Positions 13,551 through 64,000 of a stretch of 64,000 bases of DNA are shown one piece after another. The notes under the pieces are model-generated. The model saw nothing but the letters and a program-made list of their open reading frames with translations, was not told the DNA's origin and searched no databases. The position numbers and the translations under genes were made by a program. The stretch's first letter is position 1. Each line of letters starts with the position of its first letter. Source of the DNA: Nannochloris sp. 'desiccata' (lineage: Eukaryota; Chlorophyta; Trebouxiophyceae; Chlorellales; Chlorellaceae); NCBI GenBank assembly GCA_019044685.2, contig JAGTXX020000011.1:62001-126000 (forward strand), written 5' to 3'.

Positions 13551-14009
13551 AGTCGTAAAGCTTCAACATAGTTTTATGCAACTGCGACTGGCTTTTTTAA
13601 TGGCTACAATTGCTTCAGGACCAATGGAAGAAGATCCTCATTTCGCCTCGGCCATTTTTAGCATTTCACGCAGCATGAACAAGTTTTATTTTGGCAGAGG
13701 GATTGAATGGCCGAATTACCAACATGAGTACATAGTATGATATACAATTTTCATAAACAAAGCCCCAGAATAACCACTTTTCGGCAGATCCTTGTTTATC
13801 GAATGCAACTCAGAATTTGGAAGAACCCACAAGTTGACCTCGCCATGATTCCTTGAAATTTAATTTTAATTTTCTAGAATAAGCATTTATAATGTCGGTA
13901 AGGAGTTCTCATCTCATTGGTTTTAGTGTCGAGACTATGTGTGATTTGAAATCCTAAATCCTTTTCTTTTCAATCTATCTATGCAGACTCAGCCCCCTCA
14001 ATATCTGAA
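13551..14009. promoter_or_regulatory. Divergent promoter; probable 5' UTR intron of the methyltransferase
   Basis: These 459 bases separate the small membrane protein and the methyltransferase. A donor-like GTAAGG at about 13898 and a pyrimidine-rich acceptor ending ATGCAG at about 13985 suggest a 5' UTR intron of about 90 bases. An upstream ATG lies just before that donor, but splicing puts it out of frame with the methyltransferase. Confidence 0.4.
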
Positions 14010-17000
14010 ATGTCATTAGAAACAACTGAAGATCTAAACATAGACGACGAGGAGTTTCACGATGCCCAATCCGATCCTGTGCCGTCCCACAGCAACTGGG
14101 GCGGCGTTGAGGAAGAAGAAATTGAAGAGGTAGAAGACGAGCTTTCGGAAGAGCAAGAAGACCCTGGAAGTGCCCGACCAGGGCCACCGCACCATGGAAG
14201 ATCAAACTTACTCAAAGAAATCTCTCAGCCGCCTGTGGAAAATGGGGGCGTTATTGATTTGGTTTCTTCTAGTGACAAAGAAGCACAAGATGACGACGAC
14301 AACACTGTTGCTGCTGGTGATATACCCGCAACACAAGTTCTCCTTCCAGCACTCCCCTTTCGCCCTGCATCTGGCTACCTCACTAATAAAATATTAAAGC
14401 AACAGACGAAATGGGACGTAAAACCTGTTGGGTTGGCAATTCCTGCCTCGGCCACTCCATTTGGTGAATGTCCAGGAGCTTCTCAATTTACTTTTTATCG
14501 TTCATTTAGTATGCTACGCGATACAATTGGCGATTCTACAATTACCCGCAGCGTAGGGGATACGGTGTTAATTGGGTGGGAGAGACAGGATCCTAAAGAG
14601 GAACAAAGTGGTAAAGATCAAGCCGTATGTCGCATAATGTGTATTTTTATAGACCCTAGAGATAGAGTAATGAAATTTATTCCTCAGTGGGGCCGTTCAT
14701 GGTCGGATGTGCTCAATCCTTACAGTAATGAAAACACTGTAGAGCCAGATGATGCTTTAAGAGGAAGTAAAGAAATATTTTGGGAGGCTGAAGTCGGTAC
14801 TTGGCCAAATGTAGGTTCCAAGCCATTAATAGAACGTGGACTTGAACCTCTTGAATTTAATGACGTTCATAACATCACTCGATCGTGTATTGTGCGCCAC
14901 ATAGACGAGTTTGAGAAAGACGAAGAGCTTAACGAGTTTTTGTCGCAGCCTGATACGTACTTTTATAGATACTCCCTGCCACATGCCGGTCCCTTGCGCT
15001 TTGAAGAGCTGGCCTGCCCTACTGCTTTGCCAGAAATGAAAGAAAAGAAGCGGTTATCTGGACCCTTGAGGATGGTCGATGTCTTTTGTGGTAGTGGCGC
15101 TGTTTCCTGTGCTGCAATCGAAATTGGGTGGAACGTCATCACTGGTGTCGAATCAAACTTCAAAGCGTTTCAAACCTACATTAAAAATGCAACCCTTGCT
15201 GCAAAGAAGTCGTACAAAGTCCAAGAATTCTTAAAGTTAGTTAAAGAGGGAGCTGACCCGGATATACCCCGGAAAGGCGAAATTGATTGGCTCCATTTAA
15301 GCCCACCGTGCCAAAGTCTATGTAGCCAGAATGCTCATAAAGGCGTAGACAGGTACACTGAAGAGCTTATTCCCTTGTTAAATTGCATTCGGGAGCTCAT
15401 CCTGGAACTGGAATGTCCTTTCATCAGTATAGAAGAAGTTCCACGCTTTGTGTACGCTGAAATGCCGAAAGTGCAATTCACAAAAAGGAAGAAAGCAGCA
15501 GAGATGAAGGCAGCAGGTAATAATAATGCTGCAACAAATGCAGACGACGAACTTGAAGTAGACGACGCAGTAGAGGCAGAAGCTGAGATCACTGACGGTA
15601 AAGAACGCTTGCCTGTTCGAGCGTGGCTACACCTTGTTCCTGCTTTATTAACCTCCAATTGGCAAGTAGATATGCGGCTTCTTAATTCTGCTCACTATGG
15701 ATGTCCCCAAGAACGGCCTCGCCTATTTCTATTTGCCGCCCGTCGTGGCTATGAACTACCTTCTCCCCCGCCTCCCATGTACCACTCTAATTTAAAGCTA
15801 GGCGGCTTTTTTAAAAGAGACCCCAATTTAGCTACAATCAAAGATTGGGGTTCTATGGCCGTACACGCTGATCCTTCTTTACCTCCTGCAGTTACTGCTC
15901 TAGAAGCAATTGATGATTTACCACTCCTCCTCAAAGATAAAGGAGATTTATCCCAAGACGGGCATCCATGCTATGCAGGCGCCTACTTCGCTCGTAACCC
16001 TAATTGTATCTCTCGTTATGTGAAGTACATACGCCAAGGTGCCCCTGGCTATTTTGTTGATCACGTGAGTCCTCGCGGATACCCCCGCGGTCAGTTTGTG
16101 GATCCCACCAGCCCATTTGGCACCATCATCGGACAAGACGATAACTGGTCAAAATCAAGACACTATTCTGAACCTCGTGCTTTGAGTGTATTAGAACGGC
16201 GCCGTGGTCAATCATTCCCGGATAAAATGGAAATAGAAGGCGGCCCATCCGATAAAATGAAGATTGTTGGCAACGCCGTTCCTTATTTACTCGCTCGGGC
16301 GATTGCATCTACTATCATGGTGGCTGCTACCGGGAACCCTTCTTCTGCCCCACCCTTGCCAAATTTGAAAGGATGGGTCGATGCACAGGGCAATGAAGTA
16401 GCGCCACCACCAGCAAGTGAATATGATAATCGACAGGCAATGGGGCTTTTGAAATCAAAAAAGAAACGGAGAATACATCCCATCACTGCAAACGTCAATG
16501 GCACTGCCGAACAAGAAGAGAATGAGGAGGAGGAGGAGGAGGTTGAGTTAGAAGCTGCTGCATATGAAGACGAAAGTATGGATGCTGAGAAAGATGAAGA
16601 TGGGTACGAAGAACCAGATAACGACGAGGTGGAAGGGAGGGGGTTCGAAGGTAGAATAAAAATAAAAAAGAAAGCTCCTCCTCGGCATATTGGTCCAATT
16701 AGTCCAGAGGATAAGATAGAAGTGAGATCTTTTGCTGGAAAGAAATTTTCAACTCCAATGAAAATGCAGAAGATAAATACCTTCTTCATCCCTAGTCGTG
16801 AACTAACTGCTGAACCTGAGCAGCGATTACCACACCAGGAGCACCTGGAGTCGGAGCGAGAGCAAAGACAGCGACTTCGAGAACAGCTGCGGCAGCAGAA
16901 AGAAGAAGAAGAAGAAGAAAAGCATTTGAAGCTTGTTGCTGCAGAAGGAAGGGAATGCAACGAGCAAGAGGATGTCGTAGAACAACAAGAAGAAGAAGAA

Positions 17001-17282
17001 GAAGAAGAAGATGGTGTTCCTGAACAGACCACAAATTCTGATGATTTGGTATCTATTAAAGATGAGCCTGCTGAAGCCTTTGGTGTATATAATTATAATA
17101 ATATTAACGAGTTTAATTCTTTTGATCAAAGTAATGGTGAAGGCAGTTCTGGTAAGAGTAGTGGGAGTAAGGCAGTGGTAGAAAGTAACGAGAATGAAGC
17201 TGGTCGTCTTAATCAACTTGTCCAAGACGATGATGACGTGATCGACTTGACCATGGATACTGATGACGAGGTGATTGAATAA
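14010..17282 (+). CDS. BAH-domain cytosine-5 DNA methyltransferase
   Basis: A single exon encodes 1,090 aa that would transfer a methyl group from S-adenosylmethionine to C5 of cytosine in nuclear DNA. The acidic N-terminus carries VIDLV at 81-85 followed by SSSD, like a SUMO-interacting motif. A BAH-type domain spans about 160-325. Catalytic motifs follow: I at VDVFCGSGA (F359), IV at SPPCQ (nucleophile Cys434), VI as IEEVP (475-477 read EEV where ENV is usual), VIII at QERPRLF and X at GNAVP (754-758). An acidic insert sits between VI and VIII. After the domain come Glu-rich tracts, a PCNA-box-like MQKINTFF (919-926), a Glu/Gln coiled coil and a second VIDLT motif (1077-1081) at the very end. 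It has no chromodomain, so it is not a standard plant CMT. Confidence 0.92.
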   Translation: MSLETTEDLNIDDEEFHDAQSDPVPSHSNWGGVEEEEIEEVEDELSEEQEDPGSARPGPPHHGRSNLLKEISQPPVENGGVIDLVSSSDKEAQDDDDNTVAAGDIPATQVLLPALPFRPASGYLTNKILKQQTKWDVKPVGLAIPASATPFGECPGASQFTFYRSFSMLRDTIGDSTITRSVGDTVLIGWERQDPKEEQSGKDQAVCRIMCIFIDPRDRVMKFIPQWGRSWSDVLNPYSNENTVEPDDALRGSKEIFWEAEVGTWPNVGSKPLIERGLEPLEFNDVHNITRSCIVRHIDEFEKDEELNEFLSQPDTYFYRYSLPHAGPLRFEELACPTALPEMKEKKRLSGPLRMVDVFCGSGAVSCAAIEIGWNVITGVESNFKAFQTYIKNATLAAKKSYKVQEFLKLVKEGADPDIPRKGEIDWLHLSPPCQSLCSQNAHKGVDRYTEELIPLLNCIRELILELECPFISIEEVPRFVYAEMPKVQFTKRKKAAEMKAAGNNNAATNADDELEVDDAVEAEAEITDGKERLPVRAWLHLVPALLTSNWQVDMRLLNSAHYGCPQERPRLFLFAARRGYELPSPPPPMYHSNLKLGGFFKRDPNLATIKDWGSMAVHADPSLPPAVTALEAIDDLPLLLKDKGDLSQDGHPCYAGAYFARNPNCISRYVKYIRQGAPGYFVDHVSPRGYPRGQFVDPTSPFGTIIGQDDNWSKSRHYSEPRALSVLERRRGQSFPDKMEIEGGPSDKMKIVGNAVPYLLARAIASTIMVAATGNPSSAPPLPNLKGWVDAQGNEVAPPPASEYDNRQAMGLLKSKKKRRIHPITANVNGTAEQEENEEEEEEVELEAAAYEDESMDAEKDEDGYEEPDNDEVEGRGFEGRIKIKKKAPPRHIGPISPEDKIEVRSFAGKKFSTPMKMQKINTFFIPSRELTAEPEQRLPHQEHLESEREQRQRLREQLRQQKEEEEEEKHLKLVAAEGRECNEQEDVVEQQEEEEEEEDGVPEQTTNSDDLVSIKDEPAEAFGVYNYNNINEFNSFDQSNGEGSSGKSSGSKAVVESNENEAGRLNQLVQDDDDVIDLTMDTDDEVIE

Positions 17283-45362: not shown

Positions 45363-48300
45363 ATGAAGAGAAGAGAAGAAGAGAAGAAACTGAAAAGCTC
45401 TAGCAAGCTGATAGATTTGGAACAGCAGGTACGTAGTTAGCGCAGCTTTCGGGTCTCATCCTGTCAACAGAGAGCCTTTCAAGTATAGTTTGTGCAATTC
45501 ATTCGAAAAATAACCAACCTGCAACTTTCACTTCATCTATATTTTACAGTGGCAGCAATATGAAGCCAAAGTAGCACAGAGAAGCAGCACAAAGAAGAGT
45601 ATCCAGAGCAACATAACCCCTATGACTACCCCGCAAGGCTATGAAATGGAAACACCTCTCTTCACTGCTGCTGCCACGCTCAACCCAGCCAGCAACAACA
45701 ATAAAACAGCCTACTCCGGAGCGGTCCCTCGATCCCCATTAACCGCTGCATTTTCGATGGCGGCAGTATCCTCAACTACTCCACTGAATGGACTTGCACG
45801 CACCAGTCAGAAGACCCCTGTAGGAGGTAGAAACAGTCCTGATGGAGGCGAGCGTATACCAGCAATAAAAGCAAATGCACCCTCAACAGATATCCGTACT
45901 GCCGGCAACCCTTTTTTCACCCCCATGACACAGCTACCAAGCCCCTTGAGAACTCGTGCCACTGCAAATGAAGACGATCCAGCCTTACAGCAAGCTTCAA
46001 ATGCGTTTTTACAACAAGTCGAACAGCTTCATCGAAAATACGCAGCTCAGGTGGAACAGCTTAAAGACGAGGTTCAAAATTTAAGTGAACAGCGTGATGC
46101 GTTGGTGGCAGACGTGGAGAATGCATCGAGCTCTGCAGAAGAGTTGCTGGCGCGGCGTGTATCCGTTCAAAGAGATCTGGCACAGGCAACAGCAGACTTG
46201 GAACGAGCACGAGAGCGATTAACCGCGCTTGAAGGTGCTATTTCAAAAGAAGAGGATCGTATTGAAGCTCAGCGCGCTCAAATGATGGATGCAGTTGAAG
46301 CTGAAGCTGCCCTTATGCGTGAAATGCTTGAATCTGAAAGAAGAGCGCTGCATGCTGCAACGGAGGAAGGCAATGCATCTCTTGAGCGCCAAGCAAATGC
46401 TCTAGCTGATCGCGCTCAGCGTATTGATGAGGGCGCAAAAGCCCTTGCTGACCGTGATGCAGAATTGCAAGAACGGGAGCTTGAGTTTGAAATGCAAATG
46501 CGGGAGATTACACGCTCTCTTAAAGAGAGGGAGGTGAAACTGCGAGAAGCTGAAGACGTTGCTGCACAACATTTAGCTCGAGAAAAAGAATTAATTGCAA
46601 AAGACGAAGATTTAGCTGCTAAAGAAACGAAACTAAACGATGCATATAGTATGCTTGAGAAAGAAAAGGATGAAATTGAAGCTGCAGCAGCGGCAGTTGC
46701 TGAAGAACAGAAAAATCTCGAGGTTGCAGCTGCCGAGCAGGCAGCAAGAGAAGAAAAACTGGCCCTTCGTGAGACGCATTTGGACGATGCAGTAGCACAA
46801 TTTGAAGAATTGAGCGCTGAACAAGCTGTAGCAGATGAAGAAACACATGCACAGCTGGTAGAAGAAGCGAGACAAGTTCAACAAGCAGCAAGCGAAGCTG
46901 CGGCACTGACTGAGGCAGCTGTCGCTGAAGAAAGCGCAGCTCGCCAACGTCTTGAAGACTTGCGTGTATCAATCAGTGAAGCTGAATCTGCTCGTCAAAA
47001 TGCTCTTGCTGCGAAAGATGCTGCAGAAAAGGAGGTTGCTGCTGCTCAAAGCGCCCACGAGTCTGTGCTGCGGAGCACAGCTGCTAAGGAAGAAGCTCTA
47101 ATTGCTCGTGAAAAGAGCCTTGCTGAGTTGGAATCACGCTTGGATGCCCGCCAAATGGAGCTTGATAGTCAGGAAAATGTACTCTCTCAACGTTCAAAGG
47201 AACTGGATACTAAAGAGAACGCTTGCCAAGCGGAAGAACGTAGAATCCGAGAGGCTGCTGACGCGCTTGCATCTGGTAAAGACCACCTTAAGGCAGCACA
47301 AGCTCAAGCTACTGCTGATGCCCAACGTTTAGATGCCGCTCTTACAAAAGTTGAAGAAGATGCAGCACACGTTGATGCTCGTGCTGCTGAACTGTCCGCG
47401 AAAGAGAATGCGTTGGAAGCGAAAGCATCGGAATGGCGGTCTGAGGTTGACAACCACTTGGCTGATCGTGAGCAATTATTAAATGAGTACCAAGCTAAGT
47501 TAGAGCGTAGGTCAGTGGAGCTTGAAGAGGGTCAAAAGATGTTTAACGCTCGTGAAGAAGTTGTTATCAATCGCGAGCGTGCTTCTCTACAGAATGTCCA
47601 AGAGCTTGAAGCCAAGACAAGAGCGGTAGATGAAAAGGAGAGAAGAATCCTGAGAGAATTGGCTGAACGGGAAGCTGCACTGACAAACGCTGAAGCAAAG
47701 GTTGCCGCATTGAATTGTGAACTAGCGCAACGTCAATCTGTATTGGATGCCTTGTCTGAAAAATTGACAAAAGAGCAAAGCGCTGCCGAAAAGGAGCGTG
47801 AAGAGGCTGCTAAAGTACAGTCTGATGCTCGCTGGGCAAGAACTGACGCTGAAATGGCATTGGCAGAGGTCGAAGATGAGCGCCGTAGGCTACAACATCG
47901 TGAGAAACGTATTTCTGACTTGGAAATTGAGGCGCAAACTGTGCATGAACGTATTCAACAGCAAAGTGCAGAGTTAGCAGCAGCAGTGAATGCTGCCTGC
48001 CAGAGAGAAGCTCATGCTGCAGCGCAGCTTAAAGAAGCAGAATACAAACTTCGTGAAGCTATTGACCGTGATTCCCAGCATGCTTACGAATTAGAGAAGC
48101 TTGAAGTTGCCACTGCAGAGGCAGCACAGCGTGCTGCTGCAGCTGACGCTGCTGCTCAGCGGGCAAAGCGGGAGCACATGTTGGCTCAAGCGAGTCGTGC
48201 TGCGTTGGCTGATGTTGAACGCTCGTTAGATTCTAGGGAAGCCAAATTACAAGATAGCTGGAGAGCTCTTAAATCTCGCCTTTCTTCTCTCAGCAGTTGT

Positions 48301-51300
48301 ACTAGTATTTCAAATGCTGGTAATACGAGTGATGGTCCTGCTGATGAGTCATCAGCTTGCTTACTCCACAGCAACGACTCTCTTTTGGATGACGCTCGTG
48401 TCGCTTCTGGAATCGACCCTTCTCGCTCAATATTAGCTGCTTTACCCGAGGTTCACACCGACAATGCCACGTGTACTGCTTCTGCCAATACAGTACAGAA
48501 TGAAGAAAGTGTGAATGCAGTGGTAGCGGCATTGCACCGACGTAGAGCCGAGTTATTAGAAAAAGAAACGTCAATGCAACGCTGGGCTGTCGCACTTCAT
48601 TTAGAAGCTTCTCGTCAAGTTGAAGCTGCCCAACGTATCCGTGCACGTGAACAGAATCTTGGCAATAGAGAACAAGGATCTAAAAATGATCGTAGTACTG
48701 CTGAGAAGTTGCTGAGTGAAGTTGCCAAGAAAGAAGCAGAGTTGCACAACATGGCCGTGGAGCTTGAATCCGGCGAACTTCGTCTCAAGCGTGACCGTGC
48801 TACTCTTAATGAAGACCGTGCTAAATTGGATAATCAAATTGCTGATGTGTCCAAACGAGTGAGCGAGCTTGACACTCGAGAACAGCGAGTCAAGGAAGCT
48901 GAAGTAGTCTGGGGAGATCGATTAGCTGAAGTTTGTGAAAAAGAAAAAGCAGCTGAAGAGCTTCAACGCCGTGTGTCTCGTCAGCAACACGCGTGTGAAG
49001 TGAAAGAAGCCCAGCTTGTAGAAAGAGAAGCAACAATCAACGAGGCAAAGTCAAACGCGGCGTCCCGTTTGGCCAGATTGGAAGCTACCGAGAAGGAGCT
49101 GACGCAGCGTGCAAAGCACGTCGCTACTGCTGAACTTGAAGTTGAAGGGTTGCGAGCTGATGCACATAAAGAGCGTGAAGAGGCAGCTTCTGCGGCAGCT
49201 GAGGCCAGAGTCAAATTATTAGCTGCAGAAGAAAGAACAGCACAGTTGACTCAATTATCAGATGAGCTGGAAAGTCGATTAGCTGAAGCTGCTCATGTAG
49301 AAGATCGGGCTGCCGCTTTGATGGACTTTGAAAAGGATCTTCAAGGTCGTGAAAATGCTTTGCAACTGCATGAAGAAGCGACTGAGCGTGCTGCCACTGA
49401 TGCTGCAGCGGCTGCACAACGTCTTGCTGTAGATGAAGAACGTTTGCATTTAGCTGCTGCAGCTTTAGAAGAACGCGAATCTGCTGTACGTGAGGTAGAT
49501 AATGATCTTCGTAGGAGACTAAATGAAGCAGAAGCTGCTGAAGAGAGAGCAGAAGGTCGTTCTGCTGAACTGGCGCATCTTGCCGAAGAGTTGGCTGTTC
49601 AGAGGGAACAGCTCCATGCTGAGCAAATTGCCATTTCAACGCTGAAATCTGAGTTAATGGATTCACAAAAGCGTGCCGATGCTGCTCTTGCACGTGCTTC
49701 TGATGTATGTGACCGTGAAGCTGACGTGGCAACACGTGAGCAGCTTCTTGCCAAACGGGAAGCTTCTGCTGCTGCAGCGGAAGTTGAGGTAAATAAACTT
49801 TTGCGCGAGGCTGAAGGTTTGGCACGTCGTGAATCTGCTATTATTGAGCAGGAAGAAAGTTTGAAGCTTGCTAAAGAAGAGATTTACGCTGCTCGCAGAG
49901 AATTAGAGGTCGTTGAAGCTCGTGCTGCGGTCCTAGATGAGAGGGAAAGAAGGGTTTCGAAGGAGGAAAGCTTCATTAGTGCTGCCCGTGCTGAGAATGA
50001 GAATACAACAAAAGAATTACAACGGGCATCTATTGAAGCTGAATCTTTAAAAAATGAAGCCCGAGCTGAAAAGGAGCGTGCTGAGGCTGCCCTCAATGAA
50101 GCGGAACAACGAACAGCCGCTGCAGAAGAGCAAGCCCGCAAAGCCACTGAAGAACTCGCCACCGCTGAAAAGAAACGCGCTGAATTACAACGTGATGAAG
50201 ATGCGTTGGCGGAAGAAGTACACACTCTAGAACTATTACAGCAGCGCTTGCAGACAAAAGAGGCAGAAGTAAATAAGTCTGCTGCTGTTGTTGCTGAGGA
50301 AGCAGCGAGGTTACATGCTGAGCAAGCTCGCTGGGAAGAAGGTGCTTCTTCCCGTAAAGAAGCTATCACTCGCCATGCTGAATTAATTGCTGAAGCTGAG
50401 AGGGCCAAGGCAAAAGCTTCTGCTGCGGCTGAAGAGTTGAAGGACGCAGCTACAATGCAAAAACAGTTGCAGCAAAAGGAAAGAGAGCTCGCTTCAAGAG
50501 AAGTTCAGCTTGCTCGTGATGCAACTGAAGCTGAATCTCGTGCTCGCGAAGGTTCTAGAGCTTTAGCTCAAGCAAAGGCTTTGGAAGAGGCAGTTGAGCG
50601 CAGGAGAGAAGAGGCCGTGGCTATCGAAGCCAGAGCAAGAGATACTCAGTCCCGTGCAGAACAGCAGCTTCGCTCTCTTGAATCACGTGAAAACGATCTT
50701 CGAGGTGTAGAAGTTGAATTAAAGCAAATTCGCCAGCGTGAAGAAGCAGTATTAGAAGCGGAAGCCAGGATTAGACAGAGCGAACGACGGGTTGCTAATA
50801 AAGAAAATGAGCTTGAGGAAAAGAAAGAAGCTGCTTCGCTTGCCTTGTCTGAAGCAGAACGTAAACGAGAAACGTTAAAAGAACGTATTAAAGCTGCAGA
50901 TTCACGTGAAAATGAGCTCGAAACCCAGCAGGAAGAACTTTTAAAGCGAGTTGACGCGGCCACCTCAGAAATCGATCGCCGAAGAAAAGAAGCAACGGCC
51001 GCAGAAGCAGCTGCTACAGCCGCTTGGGAGAAGCTAAATGCTCGTGAAAAGGATATATCACGTAGAGAAGCTGGTCTTGACGGTCAATTTAGCGTTGCTG
51101 TGTCTCAGAAAGAAGCAGAGCTGTCGGAAATCAAAGAGCGGTTGGTTGCTGCTCGCAAGGAGTTGGAGCACGTACAGATGTCAGCCCGCCAAGGAGCGAG
51201 TAAAGAGGTGGCTGCTTTGATTGAGGAGGCACACGCTGAGGCTGAAGCGGTCGTACAACGTGCTCATGATGAATCTCGCGCAGTGCGTGCTGAGCTCGCA

Positions 51301-52092
51301 GCACAGCGGGCAGCTCACCATGATGCCGAAGTCGTTTTAAAAAGAAAAGAATTGAGTTTAGAGACTGCTGTAGCTGAAGCAAATGCTGCTGCCGATGCAG
51401 CACACGCTGAATCACGTCGTGTACAGGAATCTCGAGATATTTTGGCTGATAGAACTCGTTTAGCTGCTACTAGAGAGGAAGTTATTTCTTCAAAGGAAAG
51501 TGAGTTGCAAAAAAGACGGGACGAATTGGAGGCAGCTGAGCAACGGGCAGCGAGATTAACACACCGCTTAGAGAATGGTCTTACCACTTTAACCTTAAGT
51601 GAGCATAAAGATGATGTTGAACAGGATGAAGAAGAAGAGGACGTGGGGGAAGCACACGAACCTCCTCGTGGCTTTAAGGAAGCCGTGATAGTTACAGTTG
51701 AACCAGCTGCCTCTTCAACCCCTACTACTACCACTACCCAGCCCGCTCGTTTGGTGGCGCTGTACGAGACATTAGCTAAAGGTTCCAAGAGATTAACTCG
51801 TCTCGAAGGTATTGTTGCAGCTATCGCACGTGGTGGATCTGCTGAGAATGCTGCTATGACCTCAGCACAGCACAGCGTGAAGAATTTGAGACGGGAATTG
51901 ACTTCAATTGAATCTGCCATAGAACAGTGTGCTAGTAGGCAAAATTCTAATGGCATAGAATCAGAGACACACTGTAGGGAGTTAAGTGCTTGGGAGGGGC
52001 GTTTAGGTCAGGTGTTGGAGACTGTTGTGGCGATGCAAAGGCTAGCGTTGGGATGCAAAAGCGGGCCTCCGTCAAACACCCTTGGAAAATGA
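45363..52092 (+). CDS. Giant coiled-coil protein (2,202 aa)
   Basis: Two exons (45363-45428, 45550-52092) give 2,202 aa. The first exon encodes a basic start (MKRREEEKKLKSSSKLIDLE). Residues about 45-150 are Ser/Thr/Pro/Asn-rich with many S/T-P sites (for example NPFFTPMTQLPSPLRTRA). From about 150 to 2,000 the protein is almost uninterrupted coiled coil rich in Ala, Glu, Arg and Leu, built from degenerate copies of a L-x2-R-E-x2-L unit. One Ser-rich break falls at about 900-985. The last 170 residues contain an acidic/Thr-rich linker and a compact helical end (LVALYETLAKGSKRLTRLEG). There is no motor, membrane or DNA-binding domain. It could be a cytoskeletal, basal-body or nuclear-lamina-like filament (NMCP type); no family is recognised. 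Confidence 0.8.
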
Positions 52093-52625: not shown

Positions 52626-55600
52626 ATGTCTGAGAACCTCACTCCCCGCCTTTACCAATTAGAAATAGTAGAGCTTGCCAAGAAGAGCAACGTCGTAGCT
52701 TACCTAGATACCGGATCAGGTAAAACTTTTATTGCCGTTCTCCTGCTCCGCCATCGACAAGAAGCGGCTGCTGCTGCTCACGCTGCCGCCCTTGCCGCCG
52801 CCACCCCTCCCCCACCACCATGGAAGGCTATTTTCCTTGCCCCGCAAGTGGCACTCGTAGAACAACAAGCTGCAGTACTTTCACGTCATCTCCCTGCTAG
52901 GGTCCGTAAACTTGTTGGGGCAGATATTGAATCTTGGACTGGACATTCTTACATTTTAAATTGGCGCCAAAGTTTAGCAGAACTGGACGTGTTGGTAGCA
53001 ACTCCACAACTTGTGGTAGATATGCTGCGCCATGCTGTAGTTCCCGGTTTATGGATGTTTGATACTATTGTATTCGATGAAGCACATCACTGTAAAGGTG
53101 GCCATCCATATAATAGAATCATGGAATGCTACAAACAACCCTTACCTCGTCGTCTAGCCAATGCGGCTGCCTCGGGTAATGAAGCAAGAAATCCCACCAC
53201 CGGTATGAATTCCTTTACACCTTCTTCTAGCTCTTCGTATTCTTTATCAAAGCCAAGGATTTTTGGTATGAGTGCCGCTCCAGCTGGCGCTGGTGCTGCA
53301 AAATCTCACCTATTACCTAAAAACCTCGCTGTATTAGAATTGAATATGGAGAGCCAAGTTGTCACCGTGGCCGACCGCAGCATGGTCAACGCGGTCGTTC
53401 CACAGCCAGAGCTAGAGATAGAGGAATACCAATGTGGCGAAGCAATGATAGAAGCAATACCAAATTTAACTGCCTTACGGCAGGGGATACAAAGGGCATT
53501 GGCGAGATTAGATGTCGCAGTCACATTAGAGCAGTAAGTGTATTTTATTTACCATTTGAGAATGCGTTTCCCGCATCTTTTTAAGTCAAAAAGTGTTAAA
53601 TACTATTTCTCTCCTGATTCCCTTTCTTCTGAATATTCTTAGGCTTCGGTGGACTGCGAGTTTACAAGGTACGGTCGGTCTTTCCGGTGCATCTGATGTT
53701 ACGTATTGCACATTTGATCCTGGTGCCCCTAAATTTAAAATATCTAGATTGAAGGATATATTCCGTAGTATACTACATGTACTACAACAAGTGGGTGCGT
53801 ACGGAGCTGTACGATCCACGCTACATGCATTTCAATGGTTGGCTAAGGGAGCACCAGATGCACGACAGTCTACCTACACTTTTCCTTCAACGTCAACCTA
53901 TAATTCAATCAATAAAGCAGGTAGTGCTGCTGCCAGACCCAGAGCTGCATCAGGGACGGGCGATGAGGCTATCTCATTACAGGACCTTGGCTTCGGTGAC
54001 GATACCATTGGTCCTTCTTCTTTTATTGCTACTGATATAGAGTACAGACTCGCTGACTTACGGCGCAAAGCCTCGGTAGAAAATGTTACTTGGTCTGAAG
54101 CTGAAGATCTCGGCATAGCTGCGGTGTTATCCACAGTGGAAGTGTTGAAAAGTTTCTTAGCTGCGTTTGGCGAAGTGTTAGTGGATCAGAATGTGGCATA
54201 TGCGTTAAGTATACTTGAAGAGGCATATGGCGATATCAAATCTGGTGGTACTGGTAGAAACTCTGATGGTCCTACCAAGAGTGGCACCCGCATGAACGGT
54301 GCTGGTGGGAAGGGACACCCTTTCTCCTTATCGTTAGGTAATGCACCTATTTTTATAATGCAGCGCATTATAGATCTTATTACTCCACAGGATCTAGGAC
54401 AGAGCTTGGATTTCATTCTTTCTTCTACTGGAAGGAGTTCAATCACTGCATGTAGGGCGCTGGGGGCTGAGGGAGCGTGTTCCCTACTTCGATTTGAATT
54501 TCCTTTGATATCGCCTAAAGCAGCAAAGTTAGTCGAAATTCTGCAACGCTACAGCCCCTTGCAACCATCACCAGCACCGGAAAATTCAGTTTCTGAGGCA
54601 GCCGAGGCGTCTGTTCCTAGATTTCAAAATATATTTTCTACTTATTGGAGTGGAATAGTCTTTGCACAGCAACGCACCACGGTTCTGGCCCTTTCCGCTT
54701 TACTTGCACACCTCCCTACCGCCCATTCGTGGCTGAAAAGCAGCCCCTTCATGGCTCAGGGAGTTGCTTTAGGTGGCTGTGCCTTTATGCCAGATGAACA
54801 GAAAGCTATTTTAGATTCATTTCGAGCTGGAAAATTGAATTTATTAGTGTCTACCTCTGTCGCTGAAGAAGGTATCGACGTGAAATCATGCCAATTAGTA
54901 ATTCGGTTTGATCCTGCACCCACTGCTCAAGCATTTCATCAAAGTCGAGGCAGAGCACGCGCAGCAGGCTCTCAACTTATTGCTCTGGTAGAACATGGAA
55001 ATGTAGAAGAGCATGCCGCTGTGCATGAAATGGCTGCATACCAACATAAAATGAGGGAAGCTGCACTGCAAAATGTCGCAGACCTAGTTCAAGCTGAAAA
55101 TATAAATCTCGATGAACTGGACGACCACGACGACGGCAAAATTTTAGAAGATGATCTCTATGGCAATAGTGATATAAATTCTATTACAGAGAGTAATAGA
55201 GCGTATATAGTACCATCTACAGGTGCTAAGGTAGATTTATATTCTGCTGGATCTGTGCTACAGCATTATATATGTCAATTACCAGCGGATGAATATATGT
55301 TGCTACGACCTGCGTGGAGGGTTGACTATATCGAGGGTGGCAGTACTATTCGTAGTGGTGTTACTAATGGTGTTCATTCTACTTCAAGTGCTGTGTTTGG
55401 AGGCCCGCCTTCTGCTGGTTCCTACCAAGTTCGCGCCACTGTGCGTTTGCCAAGCTCCAGCCCTGTACAATTAGCCACGGGGCAGCTGGTGGTATCTAAA
55501 AGGATGGCAAAAGCATCAGCTGCATTAGAAGCATGCAGAGAATTACATAGATTAGGTGCATTAAATGATCATTTGTTACCTGCTGGGTTGGTTCCAGATG

Positions 55601-58600
55601 ATAATGAGGAGGAAGACGTCGACCTGCTACCAGGTGGTGAAGAAGGTGATGCTGGAGCCACAGGGATCGGGAAGAGGCGACGTGCAGGTACAACTTTTGC
55701 AAGTATTAATATAAAAACTACACCTCCTGCTGGACTTTCTACCCCATTGCCTCGTAGCATTGAACCTCCTGGTGTGACGACAGTTACTGTCTATGGGTAC
55801 GGGTGGAAGGAACGACGCCGGCGGGGAAGCACCGAGGCGAATGGCACTTGGTTTCCTTTACTGTTATTGCTGCCAAAGTTTATAGATATTAGCTGCTGTA
55901 GCAATGGCGATGGTGGCGGTGGAAAGAAGGCTGGTCAGTGGGGTGATGCAGTGCATCTAGGAGAATTTCAGCTTGATGAAGCTCAGCTACGATTAGTTTT
56001 GCAGTGCGATGATTACTTAAAGACTGCCTCTGGTCCTTGGCACTCTCTTTCTTTAAGCATTTCTAGCATCAGTGGCGGTGAAAATTCGAATGGAAGTCCA
56101 TATCCTCCTGCTTCGACGTATGCACTGGCTCCATTACTTGTAGAAAGTGGCACCACCTGCAACACCCCGCAGCAACTTGATTGGGCAAAGCTTCAAAGAA
56201 TAGTTTGGCTGCAAGACGCCTCTCGGTCTAGACTTTCAGTCCTTGACATCATGCGTACACAAGATGATGGTACGAGTAATAATACTAGTACGAATCAACA
56301 GAATATACTTAACGATTCTGTATTGATTACAAAGTACAATTACATGGTGTACGAATTCCTGAATGTGTCTAGTACGATGACACTTTCTTCCAAATTCCCA
56401 CAAGACCGTCACATTCAAAATAATGGTACTGGCGCAAGGATTGGCAACCATACTAGTACGAAACATTCCAAGGCTGACAAAACTAGAGGAGGGGATATCG
56501 ACGCTTTGCTTGATGATAATGCTACCTTTTCAGATTTTTATGCTCAGCGGTGGAACGAGAATAATTTACATCAAGAGCAACCTCTCTTACAAGCTGCGCG
56601 CGCAGGTTCTAGTTCAATGGCTCGTCGACACACACACCAGCAGCACGTTTCTACTATTTCTACGCTAATTGAAGAAAGGGAAGATGGTGAAATCGAGAAA
56701 GAACCGGTGTTCCTAGTGCCTCAACTCTGCACTCTGCACCCTATTCCTTCATCACTCTGGCCAGCATTAACAGCAGTCCCAAGGTTACTTTGGGATATAG
56801 AAGGTGGTTTTCACGCATTTGAACTTGTCACTGAGCTACAAAATGCAGGTTTTCCAGCACAGGTATGCCCTCCTTTATATTTAATTAAACAAGCGCTCAC
56901 GGCGCCGTCAGCCTCCATCGATGCAAAAGATGAAGGCAATTACGAAACTCTGGAAGCTCTCGGTGATGGATTATTGAAATTCGCTGCATCTACCCAGTTA
57001 TTTTTAAATAATCCTGTGTGGCATGAAGGCCAGCTGACTGGTGCAAAAGATCGAATGGTATCGAATAAAAAATTAATTAAAGTGGCGCTTACTTTGGGAT
57101 TAGAGAAAAGAGTGAGATTGACCGGGTGGAGGGTTAAAGAAAGGAAGAAAAGAAAAATTAATAGTCCTCGTGGAACGGTATGTGTGGTAGATGATGGCGT
57201 CGGGGATATCGAATTGAAAGACGCTAGGGGAGGAGAATTAGAAAACGGGGAACTACACAATGATGATGAGGAAGAAGATGTTGCCCCTGCCGCTGCTGCT
57301 GCTGCTGTCCTTGAGAGCGCTGAGAACGACGCTGGGGAAGAAGAAGGAAGATCAACTAGAAGGGTAAGGGTATATTAATAGGTTGATAGTACATTTATTC
57401 ATCAATTTAGCTATGAATGCATAATGAACTAAAATTTCTTTCTTTCTTTTATTTTTCCCATCCTCGTCCTTTCAACAGAACGGCAAACTATTGGCTGATG
57501 CTATGGAAGCCTTGATTGGTGCCTTTTATGTAGGCGGTGGTATAGAAGCTGGACTTGCGTTTTTACGCCATGTGCAACTCGCTGACTGCCCTATAGAGAA
57601 ACTCATTCAATATTCCAGTAGCATGAGTGCTCCTGGTACCGCTCCAGCTCTCCATGGTGGTGGTAGCAATCTTTTTAATACCTCCAACCAGAAATCAAAT
57701 GCGTTCTTCCCGATCTATCTCTCGTCTTCTTCTTCTTTGCACTCTCTGGACATATCCCAAGTAGAAGCAGCTCTTGGTGGCTATAACTTTCAAAATCCTG
57801 CACTCGCACAAGAAGCGTTGACTCATGGCAGCGTCCTCGGTGAACGATGCTACCAACGATTGGAGTTCTTGGGAGATTGCATTCTCGATTTAATTCTATT
57901 AAAAACAGCGTACTGCGCGTATAAACGTGATGTCTCTCCAGCACAGCTGCATGATATTCGTAGTATCACGGTAAATGCAGAGCGACTTGCCCTGGCGGCG
58001 GTGAGGGCTAATTTACACACGCATATACTGTATCACTCTGCTGCACTGTTTAATCAAATCGATGAATTTGTAGTAGAAGCAGAAAGTGCTGTGAAGAGAG
58101 CAGGTAAAGAAGCTGCTGGTATGGTTTATACTCCTTCACTTTCTACTTCTCAATTTGCCTGGGATGACGTCATGGTACGGTACGGGTTTGGATTAGATCG
58201 CATATGTGCTCCTAAAGTCCTTTCTGACATCATAGAAGCTTTAATGGGGGCGGTGTGGCTCGATTCCCAGGGAGACTGGGAAGTGGCAGCAGCGGTGGCG
58301 AAGCATTTACTTTCCCCTTTGCCCTGGATTGACGAGGTAGCAGTGGATGGACGACAGCCGCGTATTCCACCGCATCCAGTGCGACGTATTCATGTACGTG
58401 TATTCCTATGCTTCATTGATGTATAATTGATCCAATTACTCATTAATAACAATTCATTAATTATAATTTTCAATTCTAAACTTTGTGCAGGAGCTGGCAG
58501 CCAAGGTGGGTGTCACAGTTGATTTTCAAGTGGTTCGAGATGTTTCCAACAATTCAATTAGTTCTGTTAATACGATGGCTGTTCGTGTGATGTTCGGGGA

Positions 58601-58754
58601 TCGGTGTTTAGGGCAAGGTCCTCCCAGTGGCGGTAATAAAGCTGCAGCAGCAAGATTGGCGGCACAGGCGGTGTTGATCGCAAAGAGCGAAGAGGACATA
58701 CTGAGTTTGTTTATGAAACACGGAGATAGAGTACTAGGTAACTTTTTTATGTAG
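52626..58754 (+). CDS. DCL: Dicer-like ribonuclease III
   Basis: Four exons (52626-53533, 53643-57363, 57479-58393, 58491-58754) give 1,935 aa. Dicer cuts double-stranded RNA into small RNAs. Order: DExH helicase with DTGSGKT (28-34), DEAH (151-154), SAAPA in motif III, helicase C with VSTSVAEEGIDV and HQSRGRARAAG (near 736); a Dicer dimerisation (DUF283) domain at about 843-947; a poorly conserved platform/PAZ region (about 1017-1340) ending FYAQRWNENNLHQEQPLL and FLVPQLC; RNase IIIa with Glu1407, Asp1411, Asp1550, Glu1553; RNase IIIb with Glu1672, Asp1676, Asp1793, Glu1796; and a C-terminal dsRNA-binding domain (about 1849-1935). All eight catalytic acids are present. RNase IIIa has a long acidic insert. 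It sits directly upstream of Argonaute. Confidence 0.96.
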
Positions 58755-59096
58755 ATAGCATGTGTAGAGGTGATGTCAATTAAATTAAATTCCATTTGTA
58801 GAGACGTAGAAAGAACCAAGAGCTGCAGAGAGCCTTCAGGCAGGCTCAGAATAGTGCCAAGTCGACCTTTCGACTTCGGAAGGTCACCCTTTCTTCCTTC
58901 AATCCAGAGATATAGAGCTCAATAAAAACTTGAGCCAACCTGCCATGATGTCAAAGAAGTATTCTCGCCGATCTATCGAAGAACAGTAGTACTTGATAAC
59001 GAGGCCAAGCCGAGGCACTGCGATCAGCGATCAGGAAAGCAGGTCAGCGACAAAATCTACTTTTAATTCTGGCAGCTACGACACCAAATAACTGTC
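58755..59096. promoter_or_regulatory. Dicer-Argonaute intergenic region with overlapping hairpins
   Basis: These 342 bases must contain the Dicer 3' end and the Argonaute promoter or 5' UTR. Two mutually exclusive small hairpins overlap at 58859-58885: AAGTCGA with TCGACTT, and GACCTT with AAGGTC. Confidence 0.45.
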
Positions 59097-62000
59097 ATGT
59101 CTGGTCGCGATAACAGTGATAACCGACGTGGGGGTCGAGGCAGGGGCCGCGGCAATCGTGGACGTGGCAATCAGCAAGGTGGCCAACAACCTAGAGGCTA
59201 TTCCGCAGAGCCTCCTCAGGCGCAGGAGTGGCCATCTCTTGGGGGTGGCCAATCTTCACATCAGGGGCCCCCGCGGGGCCAGGCACCTCCTCCTAGGCCT
59301 CCTCCTTCCTACCCTGCTCAGGCGCCTCCTCAGATGCAAGAGGAATTCCCTGCTCTTGGTGGAGGCGGCTGGGGCCCTCCACCTGGCCATGCATCCCAAC
59401 CTTCACCTCAACCCATGCAATATAGCCAACCCTCTTCTGGTCCTGTACCTATGGAAGCATCACCTGCACCTCCTCCTGCATTGCCCATAGCTCAGATACC
59501 ATCTCAAGAGATCAATCAACAAGTGATCTCAAACCCTCAAGGCAGACGTGCCCTTGCAAACGTTCCGAGTCGCCCTCTTCGCCCTGGATTTGGAAAGCAG
59601 GGAAAGCCTCTCAAACTTTTAGCAAACTGGTTCTCGGTAAGAAATTCGTTTGTTGTATCGCCGTTTTTTTTTCTATTTCTAAACCACTCTTCCTTCTGAA
59701 ACCCCCTTCTCTCTCGTCAATTTCTCTCCAGGTCGATTTAAAAGCGAGTGAACTTTATCATTATGCTGTTCATGTCAAGAAACTCGTCATTGAAGAGGCT
59801 GAACCTGCTGCAGAGACCACCGCACGCCGCCGCCCTGCTCGTGCCGCTCCTTCTGGCCCCTTGCCTTCTCTCCTCTGCCGTGCTGCCATGCAGAAACTTG
59901 CCACAGAAATGCAATGGCCTGTTGGATGCTGGGCTTTTGATGGCCGTGCCAACATGTACACCAGCAATGTTAAAGTCGTTCCTGGAGATTTGCTTGAAAA
60001 AGAAGTCATCACCACACTGCCTGGGGAAGCACGTCCTGTGAAATTCTCTATTAAAGTGGAGCGTGTGGCCATCTTACCTACCTCTGCTTTGAAAGATTTC
60101 CTCGCTGGACGCAGCGACTCGGGTCTTGCTCCTCACCATTGTTTGCAAGCTCTTGATGTTATCTTGAAGCATCGTATGGGAGTCAATGCGCTCAATCGAC
60201 CTGACATTATGGCTCAAGGTCGTTCGTTCTTAATGTACGGCCCTGAAACTCAGCGACAAAGCATCGGTGGAGGTGCCCAAATTTGGATGGGGTACAAGCA
60301 AGCTGTGAGACCTTGCCAAACTGGACTTGCGTTGACTGTCGACACGGCGGCAGGCGCCATCGTTGATGTGGGCAACCCCGCCCAGCCTCGTGATTTAACG
60401 AAGCTGATGTATGATATTTTGGGGGGACCCGATAAAGTACGTCCTCAGGGATTAGATGGCCGCCAAGTTCGAATGCTGGAAAGCGCTCTTCGTGGTCTTA
60501 AAGTTCAAGCTACCCACAATGGTTTCAAGCGGACTATCGTAGGAGTAGCTCGCACTACGCCTTTCACTGAAAAGTTCACTGATGGCGAAGGCAGGGAGAC
60601 TACTGTAGCTAATTACTTCCAAAGACAGTACAACGTGCGTTTGAATGATCGCAAACTGCCCAATGTGAAAATTGGCAATGGCAAGACGGTGCTCCCTCCT
60701 GAGATCTGCACCGTCCTACCAAAACAACGCCTTGGCAAATTAACTGGCGACCAAACCGCTGGTATGATTAAATTCGCTGCTCAAAAACCTCAGGATAAAA
60801 TCAAGTTTATCCAGAAGAAGGTGCAAGATGTCCAGGGGGAAGCACAGCATGAAATGAAGACTTTTGGAGTCAGTGTTGGCGGTACCATGGCATCAGTATC
60901 TGGCCGAATTTTACCCAACCCCAATCTGTCGTACGGAGGAGGTAAAGGTGCATTTAACCCTGGGGCCAATGGAGCTTGGAATTTAAAAGATATCAAGTTC
61001 TTAGAAGGGCAGAGAATGGAAAGTTGGGCTGTCGTCAGTTTTGCGAATCGACGCTGGGAGGTTGAAGACGTCCCAAATTTCATCAGAGAATTCACTAAAG
61101 TCTGCAAATCCTGTGGAATTAGCGTGGCGGATAACCCACCCTTGATTTCTCCTAACCCGAACAGCCCTGCTGGACCGGTTTTGGAACGTGCCATGCAGCA
61201 GGCGGCACAGAAGTTTAGAAAACCTGCTGATCTAATTTTAGTTATTTTACCCGATACCGGTACCGAGTTGTATCGTGAGGTAAAACAAGCTGGCGATAGT
61301 TACTTGGGAGTTCCTACCCAGTGTGTGGTCGCTCAAAAGGCCAAGATTGGAGCCAAGCCTGATTTCAAACGAGGTCAATTACAGGTATGTAGAATTACAA
61401 TTATAAATTATGATGAATAATACTATGTTGCTCCTTCCCAATCAATCGTAACTCGATAATTTCAACTTATTCTTCCTCTTTTTTTTTCCTGGTCTCTCTT
61501 TGGCAGTACATTGCCAACGTAGCTTTGAAAGTAAATGCTAAACTTGGTGGCCGTAATGTGGTGGTTTCTCCTAGTACTATCAATGCATCTGCCGACTTTT
61601 TGAAACAATTTGGAAAATCTCCCTTCATGGTGATGTCTGCAGACGTGACTCACCCTGGCATTGGCTCATCTATGCCGTCATTAGCTGCAGTAGTAGCGTC
61701 AATGGAGGCAACTGCATCGAAGTTTGCGTGCAGATTATCCTGTCAACCTGTTCAATCAGGCCGTCAGGTCGAAGAAATTATTACTGACCTGAAGGACATT
61801 GCCAAAGAACTGTTGGTAGAATTCTACCGCACTACGAACGGAAAGAGGCCCGAACGGTTATTCTTTTACAGAGATGGTGAGTGTTCTTTCGCTTATTAGC
61901 TTTCCAATTAATTAATCAATTTTCCGAGCACTTACCAAACTATTTTTGACTAAAAAAACCTTATTGTAGGCGTCTCTGAGGGACAGTTTGATCAGGTGGT

Positions 62001-62523
62001 AGCTTACGAATACGAAGCATTACGCCAAGCATGTGCTGAAATGGGTGACCCGGGCGCGAAGTACGCTCCACCTATCACCTTTATCGTAGTACAAAAGCGT
62101 CATCAAACTCGCCTCTTTGCTCGAGATCCCCGTGACGCTGATCGCTCTGGCAATGTGCTTCCCGGCGTCGTTGTCGACAGAGACATCTGCCATCCCTTCG
62201 AATTCGACTTTTACTTGAATAGTCACGCTGGCTTACAAGGATGTAACCGGCCTGCCCATTACCACGTCCTAATTGATGAAAATCGATTTGGCGCTGATAT
62301 GCTGCAGCTGTTTACATATCAGATGTGCTATACCTTTGCTCGCTGCACTCGTTCCATTGCGGTGCCCGCTGCTACAAGGTATGCACATCTCGCGGCCTTT
62401 AGAGCCCGTACTTTGATGAGCGGAGGTGGTAGTGAAGGTGGAAGTGTGGCGAGTGGTGAGGGTCCACCTCCAACATTGCTGCCTGTGAACGCTAAACTGC
62501 ATAATTGCATGTTCTATATCTAA
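59097..62523 (+). CDS. AGO: Argonaute (AGO clade), slicer residues present
   Basis: Four exons (59097-59636, 59732-61384, 61507-61876, 61970-62523) give 1,038 aa. Argonaute binds small RNAs and cuts or represses matching RNAs. The N-terminus is RG-rich ([16 protein letters not shown]), then Pro/Gln-rich with EWPSLGGG and EFPALGGGG. The N domain ([27 protein letters not shown]), PAZ (about 440-560), MID and PIWI follow. The PIWI catalytic tetrad is recognisable: Asp777 in SADVTHPG, Glu821 in EEIITDL, Asp854 in FYRDGVSEG, and His in [11 protein letters not shown] (951/953). The C-terminus ends MFYI, close to the usual FYx end. It is clearly AGO, not PIWI, clade by the PAHYHVLxDEN motif. Its 5' end is 342 bp from Dicer. 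Confidence 0.96.
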
Positions 62524-63154
62524 ATAGAAGTAGTAGATGGAGGTTAAGTAAGTGAGATAATACTCGGTTTTGAGCGTGGGTTCCATTATGAAGGGATACT
62601 AGGAACTCTCCAAGGCTATCTCAATGGTATGTATAGAAGAAAAGTAATTTTGGGGCTTTGTGCGAGTTAGCCCCGCCTGAAAAATATTTTGGAAAATAAA
62701 AAGTAAAGCGAATGTTTTAGGGAACCTGTCCTATGTGTGCATGCATCCCATTTAGATGATGTATCTCCCCCTTCTTTAAATCTGTTTTGAATAAAACCAT
62801 TGTTTTTAATTTAAGAATACGGTAGTAGCTGGCAATTTGAGAAACTTCGGGTGTGTCGGCTCACTTTTTGAACCGCGTCGAAAAGAAGTGTGCTGCAGAT
62901 CTAAAACCAATAATTCCATCTTCAACGGTTCCGAATTTTATTATTTAAATCTGCTTCTAGTCCGCGCTGCAATTTTCTCGGCCCTGTGGGTCTATGAAAT
63001 GAAACTGCTGTGTGCTTGAAAGATGCTCATGTAATTTAACTTGAGGTATGTTAAGTGTTCATCTAAAATGAACCTCATCTAAATCCATATAACCTAGCAA
63101 TAACATATACCAAAATCTAGAAACTGACCTTCCTTAAAATTTAAAAGCAGGAAG
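62524..63154. other. Intergenic region downstream of Argonaute
   Basis: These 631 bases lie between two + strand genes. No gene, RNA or repeat is seen. A pyrimidine-poor AG just before 63155 is a weak acceptor candidate. Confidence 0.4.
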
Positions 63155-64000
63155 ATGAATTTTCTCGCATCATTCTTGCTCCTGAATGTAGTGTTTACTG
63201 TGATTGGTGCCAACCCAGTGCCTCCCAGTGGACGCTTTGCCTATCCCGGAGGCCCTGATCTGGCAACAGGGGTTTGGATGGCTGTAGCAGAAAACTCAGA
63301 TTCAGCCGTAGTTATGGCGGTGGCGAATGCAGGTGGCCAGCTCTCGGTCCGCCAACCAAGTACTGGCGAAGTTATCACAACCGTGATCAACTATATTTCC
63401 TATGAATGCATCGATGACAACGTCTTTGTAGCCACTATAGAAGGTATTAGCTACCCTACGTTGGCTCAAATTAGTCAATGTAGCATATATTTTATTAATG
63501 AAACACATAGAGCGGTAAATAGTTTACCGTTGAGTGGAGGAAAGTGTCCAAATGCTGCCTTTTCTGGATTTAATTTAGGGCCTAATGGCGCATTTGTCAG
63601 CTCTAATATCTACAGATACGTAGATGGAGTATTACCCAGGCCAACCTCTTTTGTTTGCCAAAACAGGACGACAGCAACATTCGCTGCCGTACCTCCTACT
63701 TCCTCACCTAGTCTCCCAATCATGCGTCTTCCTCAAAACACCACTAACACTTCGAGTACCACTCTTTTCCCATCATCCGGTTCCTTAGCACTTCCACCAG
63801 CACCAGCACCCCCTTCACCACCCTCCCCTTTCCCTACTCTATCTAAATCTGGTGGGGCTGCAGTGCCTCTAGGGATCTGGAAAACAGCAGACAATGTAGA
63901 AATTATAACCAGAGATGGATTTTATGCTATTATTTATGATCCATTTACTAATAAACTACTAGCGAAACGAGCAAAGTATTTTAATCACCAGTGTCTTGAT
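63155..64000 (+). CDS. Secreted Pro/Ser-rich protein with repeated module (3' end outside window)
   Basis: The frame is open for 282 codons and runs off the window. MNFLASFLLLNVVFTVIGAN is a secretory signal peptide. A first module begins GVWMAVAENSD, has a QPSTGEV turn, and ends YECIDD. A Cys-containing stretch with two N-glycosylation-type sites and a Ser/Thr/Pro linker (ALPPAPAPPSPPSPF) follows. A second module begins GIWKTADNVE, has a DPFTNK turn and ends HQCLD, matching the first in spacing. This is typical of algal cell-wall or matrix proteins, in which Pro-rich linkers join small globular domains. No family is recognised. No stop codon or intron is visible before the edge. Confidence 0.7.
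   Translation, partial: MNFLASFLLLNVVFTVIGANPVPPSGRFAYPGGPDLATGVWMAVAENSDSAVVMAVANAGGQLSVRQPSTGEVITTVINYISYECIDDNVFVATIEGISYPTLAQISQCSIYFINETHRAVNSLPLSGGKCPNAAFSGFNLGPNGAFVSSNIYRYVDGVLPRPTSFVCQNRTTATFAAVPPTSSPSLPIMRLPQNTTNTSSTTLFPSSGSLALPPAPAPPSPPSPFPTLSKSGGAAVPLGIWKTADNVEIITRDGFYAIIYDPFTNKLLAKRAKYFNHQCLD

Follow-up and report, generated by a model that had tools for sequence, protein, structure and literature searches.

The window analysed here, a 64-kb stretch of the Nannochloris genome (C11:62001-126000; GC about 0.45), carries a Dicer-like gene (DCL) followed by an Argonaute gene (AGO) on the same strand. Both lie within a single stretch of about 10 kb, with 342 bp from the stop codon of the first to the start codon of the second (Table 1). 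Splicing of the window sequence gave four DCL exons (52626-53533, 53643-57363, 57479-58393 and 58491-58754), separated by introns of 109, 115 and 97 nt, and four AGO exons (59097-59636, 59732-61384, 61507-61876 and 61970-62523), separated by introns of 95, 122 and 93 nt; all introns of both genes have GT-AG ends. The positions, order, strand and spacing of the two genes proposed in an earlier sequence-only reading were confirmed to the base by splicing, as was the similar length of their introns (93-122 nt). The whole genome comprises 21,550,525 bp in 18 contigs; for Nannochloris desiccata UTEX 2526, the accessible part of PMC12636532 gives 21.6 Mb, 9,123 genes and 45.0% GC.

Table 1. Features of the DCL/AGO locus and its upstream neighbours (window positions)
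Feature	Position	Strand	Description and basis
C-5 cytosine DNA methylase ORF	13950-17279	+	1,110 aa; also matches Cons_hypoth95 weakly; lies about 35 kb upstream of DCL
SET-domain ORF segment	42329-43621	+	431 aa; about 9 kb upstream of DCL
Coiled-coil-like open frame (by eye)	45514-52092	+	2,192 aa; no Pfam match; directly upstream of DCL
DCL (Dicer-like gene)	52626-58754	+	1,935 aa, 4 exons; splicing, Pfam, best solved relative, tree
DCL N-terminal helicase part	52626..53150	+	DEAD match at residues 11-159; LDTGSGKT from residue 27, FDEAHHC at 150
DCL Helicase_C	54787..54963	+	match at residues 685-741; QSRGRARA from residue 736
DCL platform/PAZ/connector and start of RNase IIIa	55612..57054	+	residues 960-1440; AlphaFold model, Foldseek
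DCL RNase IIIa catalytic motifs	56941..57530	+	split by an acidic insert and intron 2 (57364-57478)
DCL RNase IIIb	57797..58270	+	residues 1650-1807; profile matches, motif positions
Intergenic gap	58755..59096	+	342 bp; contains four ATGs, an AATAAA (58921) and a single 9-bp hairpin, but no TGTAA
AGO (Argonaute gene)	59097-62523	+	1,038 aa, 4 exons; RG-rich N-terminus, DEDH tetrad, C-terminus MFYI

A database gene model, P0001 (1,406 aa, 17 member sequences), is also encoded by the window; its source contig measures 2,531,113 bp and C11 of the present genome 2,532,334 bp. P0001 joins AGO to the next downstream gene (window positions about 62440-63200), losing the AGO C-terminus. The model in Table 1 was preferred because its unspliced MFYI end resembles the MFYV, MFFV and MYYV ends of aligned algal relatives. 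The fusion in P0001 represents either an annotation mis-splice or transcripts that read through from AGO to the gene behind it. For the window's own DCL, no database model was found among the DCL matches listed (32, and the best 120 of 196).

Profile matches over the Pfam cut-off were obtained in the DCL protein for DEAD (4.7e-14), Helicase_C (2.1e-13), Dicer_dimer (DUF283; 2.8e-20) and Ribonuclease_3 (two stretches): a helicase with its N- and C-terminal parts, a dimerisation domain and two RNase III domains are all present. The PAZ domain stayed under its cut-off (19 vs 28.8 bits; 23.1 bits in a genome-wide PAZ search), and the relative P0121 likewise reached 28.7 bits against the cut-off of 28.8. 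An AlphaFold model of this region (mean pLDDT 69.2, with 135 of 481 residues below 50) was matched by Foldseek to plant DCL3 and DCL4, to mammalian Dicer and to human Dicer platform-PAZ-connector cassettes, with no TM-score to the model above 0.45. DCL thus appears to have a PAZ domain with a platform, weak by sequence and supported by a predicted fold with modest TM-scores. The C-terminal dsrm (dsRBD) profile gave 17.3 bits against a cut-off of 23. Counted from motif positions, the RNase IIIa site comprises E1407, D1411, D1550 and E1553 and the RNase IIIb site E1672, D1676, D1793 and E1796, residues which we take to be the catalytic ones. With E, D, D, E in both RNase III sites, the catalytic completeness ascribed to this protein holds under that assignment. 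By sequence, its best solved relative is plant Dicer homolog 1 (7eld).

In the AGO protein, ArgoN, ArgoL1, PAZ, ArgoMid and Piwi passed the Pfam cut-off and ArgoL2 stayed below it (30.7 vs 33.3 bits); the domains follow the order N, L1, PAZ, L2, MID, PIWI. Alignment with plant, animal and algal AGOs placed a DEDH slicer tetrad at D777, E821, D854 and H994, the catalytic role and positions of these residues being our assumption. The catalytic columns are common to the relatives, with a D in place of E821 in one of 11 aligned rows (P0006). The tetrad is complete in the alignment, so that AGO too, on the presumed assignment, has the full catalytic set claimed for it. The best solved relative by sequence was human AGO1 (2.8e-145), vs 1.4e-36 for Piwi-like protein 1, and the protein is closer to the AGO clade than to PIWI proteins.

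Genome-wide searches were performed in six frames, exon by exon, a procedure that a very divergent second copy could escape. All Piwi matches were confined to the AGO gene, both with the Piwi profile (2/2) and with a plant AGO query (3/3), and both PAZ matches with E up to 0.001 are those of DCL and AGO. RNase III gave seven matches in the genome, two in DCL and five elsewhere. No Dicer architecture was seen in the ORFs, examined by eye over about 3.2 kb each, at four of these five loci (L004, L005, L007 and L009), and the fifth, L008, has a score and frame length equal to those of L007. Since no second Piwi, PAZ or Dicer-type RNase III was found, the detectable RNAi core is one locus. Beyond this pair, no Dicer and no Argonaute were detected in the alga, a point absent from the sequence-only reading. 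A search of the genome for RdRP found none, but the control genomes, which likewise gave no match, were uninformative.

A polycistronic mRNA had been considered for the pair. According to such a scheme, DCL and AGO would share a dicistronic transcript, with leaky scanning or reinitiation as the route to AGO. Chlamydomonas and Auxenochlorella both have bicistronic mRNAs, and the accessible part of a preprint (PMC11291117) gives for these two algae ORF 1 medians of 357 and 291 nt respectively, median spacings between the ORFs of 183 and 40 nt (3,415 and 2,518 nt for monocistronic loci), ATG observed/expected ratios of 0.49 and 0.43 before ORF 2, and a weak ORF 1 start context with leaky scanning as the mechanism. 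The present locus, same-stranded and in a green-algal host, resembles these examples in its collinear ORFs; as to the spacer, its 342-nt gap is above both bicistronic medians and far below the monocistronic ones. The P0001 fusion of AGO with the downstream gene might also reflect read-through RNA here. However, DCL as ORF 1 measures 5,808 nt, 16-20 times the median lengths of green-algal bicistrons, and contains 117 ATGs at an observed/expected ratio of 1.14, that is, with no ATG depletion. Nor is its start context weaker than that of ORF 2, as judged by eye with no species matrix: DCL has A and AGO has G at -3, and both have T at +4. The AATAAA in the gap, weak evidence of a poly(A) site, is a further, minor argument against a common transcript. 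Because the DCL ORF is long and rich in ATGs, because four more ATGs lie in the gap and because A stands at -3, translation of AGO from a shared mRNA would be poor. In ORF 1 length, ATG depletion and start context, the locus departs from known green-algal bicistrons; a shared DCL-AGO mRNA would be unlikely judging from these features, and we attach very little weight to it.

The same reading had raised joint transfer of the two genes and a history common to both. Trees were built with 33 rows for AGO and 24 for DCL, hand-chosen from the matches listed (the best 120 of 1,329 for AGO; 32, and the best 120 of 196, for DCL); Chlamydomonas DCL was absent among the matches listed. AGO groups with P0002 (83% identity) and P0003 (64%), and together with these and six further rows forms the sister of a Parachlorella/Chlorella/Micractinium clade (100/99). 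Trebouxia, Myrmecia and Apatococcus group in this tree with chlorophycean and ulvophycean rows and not with Chlorellales (95/89), and trebouxiophytes are therefore not recovered as a single clade in the AGO tree. DCL groups with P0122 (65% identity) and P0121, then with P0123 and P0160; this group is the sister of Parachlorella, Chlorella, Micractinium, Auxenochlorella and P0157 (100/100), in a tree where five branches are long and the composition of several rows is unusual. Chlorella, Micractinium and Parachlorella, with Auxenochlorella in the DCL tree only, thus share the same protein families in the same clade. Single copies of Dicer and Argonaute are reported for Chlorella in the accessible part of PMC4014436.

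DCL and AGO both nest with named Chlorellales; each fits vertical descent within that order, and joint transfer is not supported. Horizontal acquisition of both genes together would draw on the adjacency itself and on nothing else, and the strongly supported nesting of the two proteins with named Chlorellales and the short introns in both genes speak against it; we find it scarcely credible.

The sequence of the gap has a single match in the genome. Its 9-bp hairpin (58864-58885; one found vs 0.3 expected in shuffles) was detected by a bacterial-type promoter/terminator scan, the rest of which is not meaningful for this organism. Rfam searches of the 64-kb window gave nothing above gathering scores. 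The flanking same-strand gaps measure 533 bp upstream (stop at 52092 to ATG at 52626) and 631 bp downstream (stop at 62523 to ATG at 63155). A crude survey collected 15 same-strand gaps longer than 180 nt, of which 11 come from the window and four from three of four 10-kb samples (none in L032), with a range of 362-1,994 and a median of 1,095. This survey overestimates gaps because short exons are missed: the DCL-AGO pair itself, counted among the 15, is read as 739, the last DCL exon having been missed. The true gap is shorter than all 15 crude values, in a comparison that is biased upward. We thus consider the spacing short but not special, adding little given that the exact flanking gaps are of like scale. 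As for the adjacency, the probability that two given single-copy genes out of 9,123 sit directly next to each other is about 2.2e-4, and about 1.1e-4 on the same strand, with no correction for how many other pairings would have seemed remarkable.

Gene order in other algae bears on the assertion that clustering of RNAi genes is unusual among green algae. In the one green alga named in both the AGO and DCL lists, Parachlorella kessleri, the two genes are unlinked (1/1), N2152v2_006229 lying on a contig of 4,246,843 bp and N2152v2_003174 on one of 3,067,154 bp, whereas in Nannochloris they are 342 bp apart. The comparison of gene order, which covers this single named relative, shows that the order is not kept there; the pairs P0016/P0157 and P0063/P0206, each alike in annotation style and on different scaffolds, stand outside the count, as do DCL P0122 and AGO P0003, which may or may not belong to one species and whose longest contigs differ (86,339 and 49,873). 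As a general rule, the assertion may be too strong. We take Chlamydomonas AGO1 to be Cre02.g141050, the next locus number after that of DCL1 and, if this is right, Dicer and Argonaute are neighbours in Chlamydomonas reinhardtii too. These consecutive numbers would suit a DCL-AGO neighbourhood dating back to early core chlorophytes, which Nannochloris and Chlamydomonas would have retained and Parachlorella would have lost. The DCL1 number, Cre02.g141000, is confirmed by the accessible part of PMC11905391. Against such an old neighbourhood, Cre02.g141050 was not found in the open-licence literature searched, the Parachlorella genes are unlinked, and the accessible part of PMC6668577 calls CrAGO1 the more divergent among the three; we hold such a neighbourhood to be improbable.

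Chlamydomonas differs from Nannochloris in other respects. As far as the accessible parts of these papers go, it has three Dicers and three Argonautes (PMC4817775), against one detected of each in Nannochloris, and its DCL1/2 are without PAZ (PMC7676726), whereas the Nannochloris DCL has a PAZ region. No report of a Dicer-Argonaute gene neighbourhood was found in the titles and abstract starts of the open-licence papers listed, and such a neighbourhood is likewise missing from the accessible parts of PMC5093975, PMC4817775, PMC7676726, PMC6129010 and PMC6668577.

That some algae lack RNAi genes, as had been stated, is supported by published losses. In the accessible parts of the sources, the genes are reported missing from Helicosporidium and two Ostreococcus (PMC4014436), and from Medakamo, C. 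merolae and O. tauri. Accounts of Coccomyxa diverge in the portions available: one paper gives two argonaute-like proteins and an RdRP with no Dicer, unlike PMC4014436, which gives single copies of both genes. Both genes are reported present in Prototheca wickerhamii and Auxenochlorella, again by partly accessible text. No protein named Picochlorum occurred among the best 120 of 1,329 AGO matches, many of which carry no species name. Searches of viral_contigs (8, 32 and 18 pattern stretches) and genome_contigs (57) yielded no confirmed relative of AGO or DCL.

Within the window, the nearby genes are mostly unrelated to the pair: two amylase-type genes, RhoGAP, rhodanese, FAM91, TPR and glyoxalase. 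The SET and DNA methylase genes upstream (Table 1) might suggest surroundings devoted to silencing. Three further methylase loci are found on C12, C14 and C15. These surroundings matter for the idea that the linkage is selected, the two genes having separate promoters but staying side by side for common chromatin control or so that the RNAi trait is inherited jointly, like eukaryotic pathway clusters. The low prior of adjacency (about 2e-4), the restriction of the detectable RNAi core to this locus, the SET gene at about 9 kb and the methylase at about 35 kb upstream, and the presumed Chlamydomonas case, of which the DCL1 number alone is confirmed, speak for it; the unlinked Parachlorella genes and the lack of relation of the other nearby genes to RNAi speak against it. 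We regard selected linkage as possible, at well under even odds. That the RNAi core of the Nannochloris lineage is a co-regulated two-gene cassette whose members stay together and are acquired, retained or lost jointly, is more doubtful still; if true, relatives without RNAi would have lost both genes by one deletion.

The explanation we prefer, with a probability of about 0.6, is that these are the only detected DCL and AGO of the alga, ordinary and vertically inherited, forming two separate transcription units and brought together by ordinary rearrangement. Their adjacency most likely would have arisen in this way in a compact genome. In its favour stand the gene models and domains, the Dicer-like fold of the PAZ region, the catalytic columns that AGO shares with its relatives, the failure to find second copies, the trees, the ORF features that speak against one mRNA, the unlinked Parachlorella genes and the unrelated kinds of several nearby genes. 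Several observations count against this explanation: the prior of about 2e-4; the Chlamydomonas pair, a second green-algal case if the presumed number is right; the 342-bp gap below the 15 crude values; the SET and methylase genes nearby; and the limitation of the gene-order comparison to one named relative. The neighbourhood is real and mildly surprising, while both of its genes are ordinary; as a gene arrangement it is a curiosity until the gene order of relatives is known.

Small RNAs are cut from double-stranded RNA by Dicer and taken up by Argonaute, which then slices or represses the transcripts that they match. DCL and AGO would probably act together as canonical RNAi, and their most likely job, judged from the context, may be retroelement silencing, a reasonable role given that no RdRP was detected and that many near-identical retrotransposon copies are present. 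With the two genes adjacent, one deletion can be enough to take out the entire RNAi core. RNAi was lost in several small-genome algae and, with one core locus of 10 kb, loss by single deletion is easy to test; in such a species it would be equally easy to test a complete RNAi knock-out against retroelement activity in a compact algal genome.

The genome contains 131 reverse-transcriptase matches, 17 of which have an identical top score. Many of them are no more than 30 kb away from the end of a contig (C2, C3, C4, C6, C9, C11, C14, C15, C16 and C18), and on C8 they are densely packed between about 5 and 242 kb, a few others following as far as 444 kb. We read these match positions as recent retroelements of subtelomeric or centromere-like distribution. 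Reverse-transcriptase matches are also found at 624-634 kb between L007 and L008 (G000:C15:616410-642775), two RNase III fragments that are equal in score and frame length, on opposite strands and 26 kb apart, which look like an inverted duplication.
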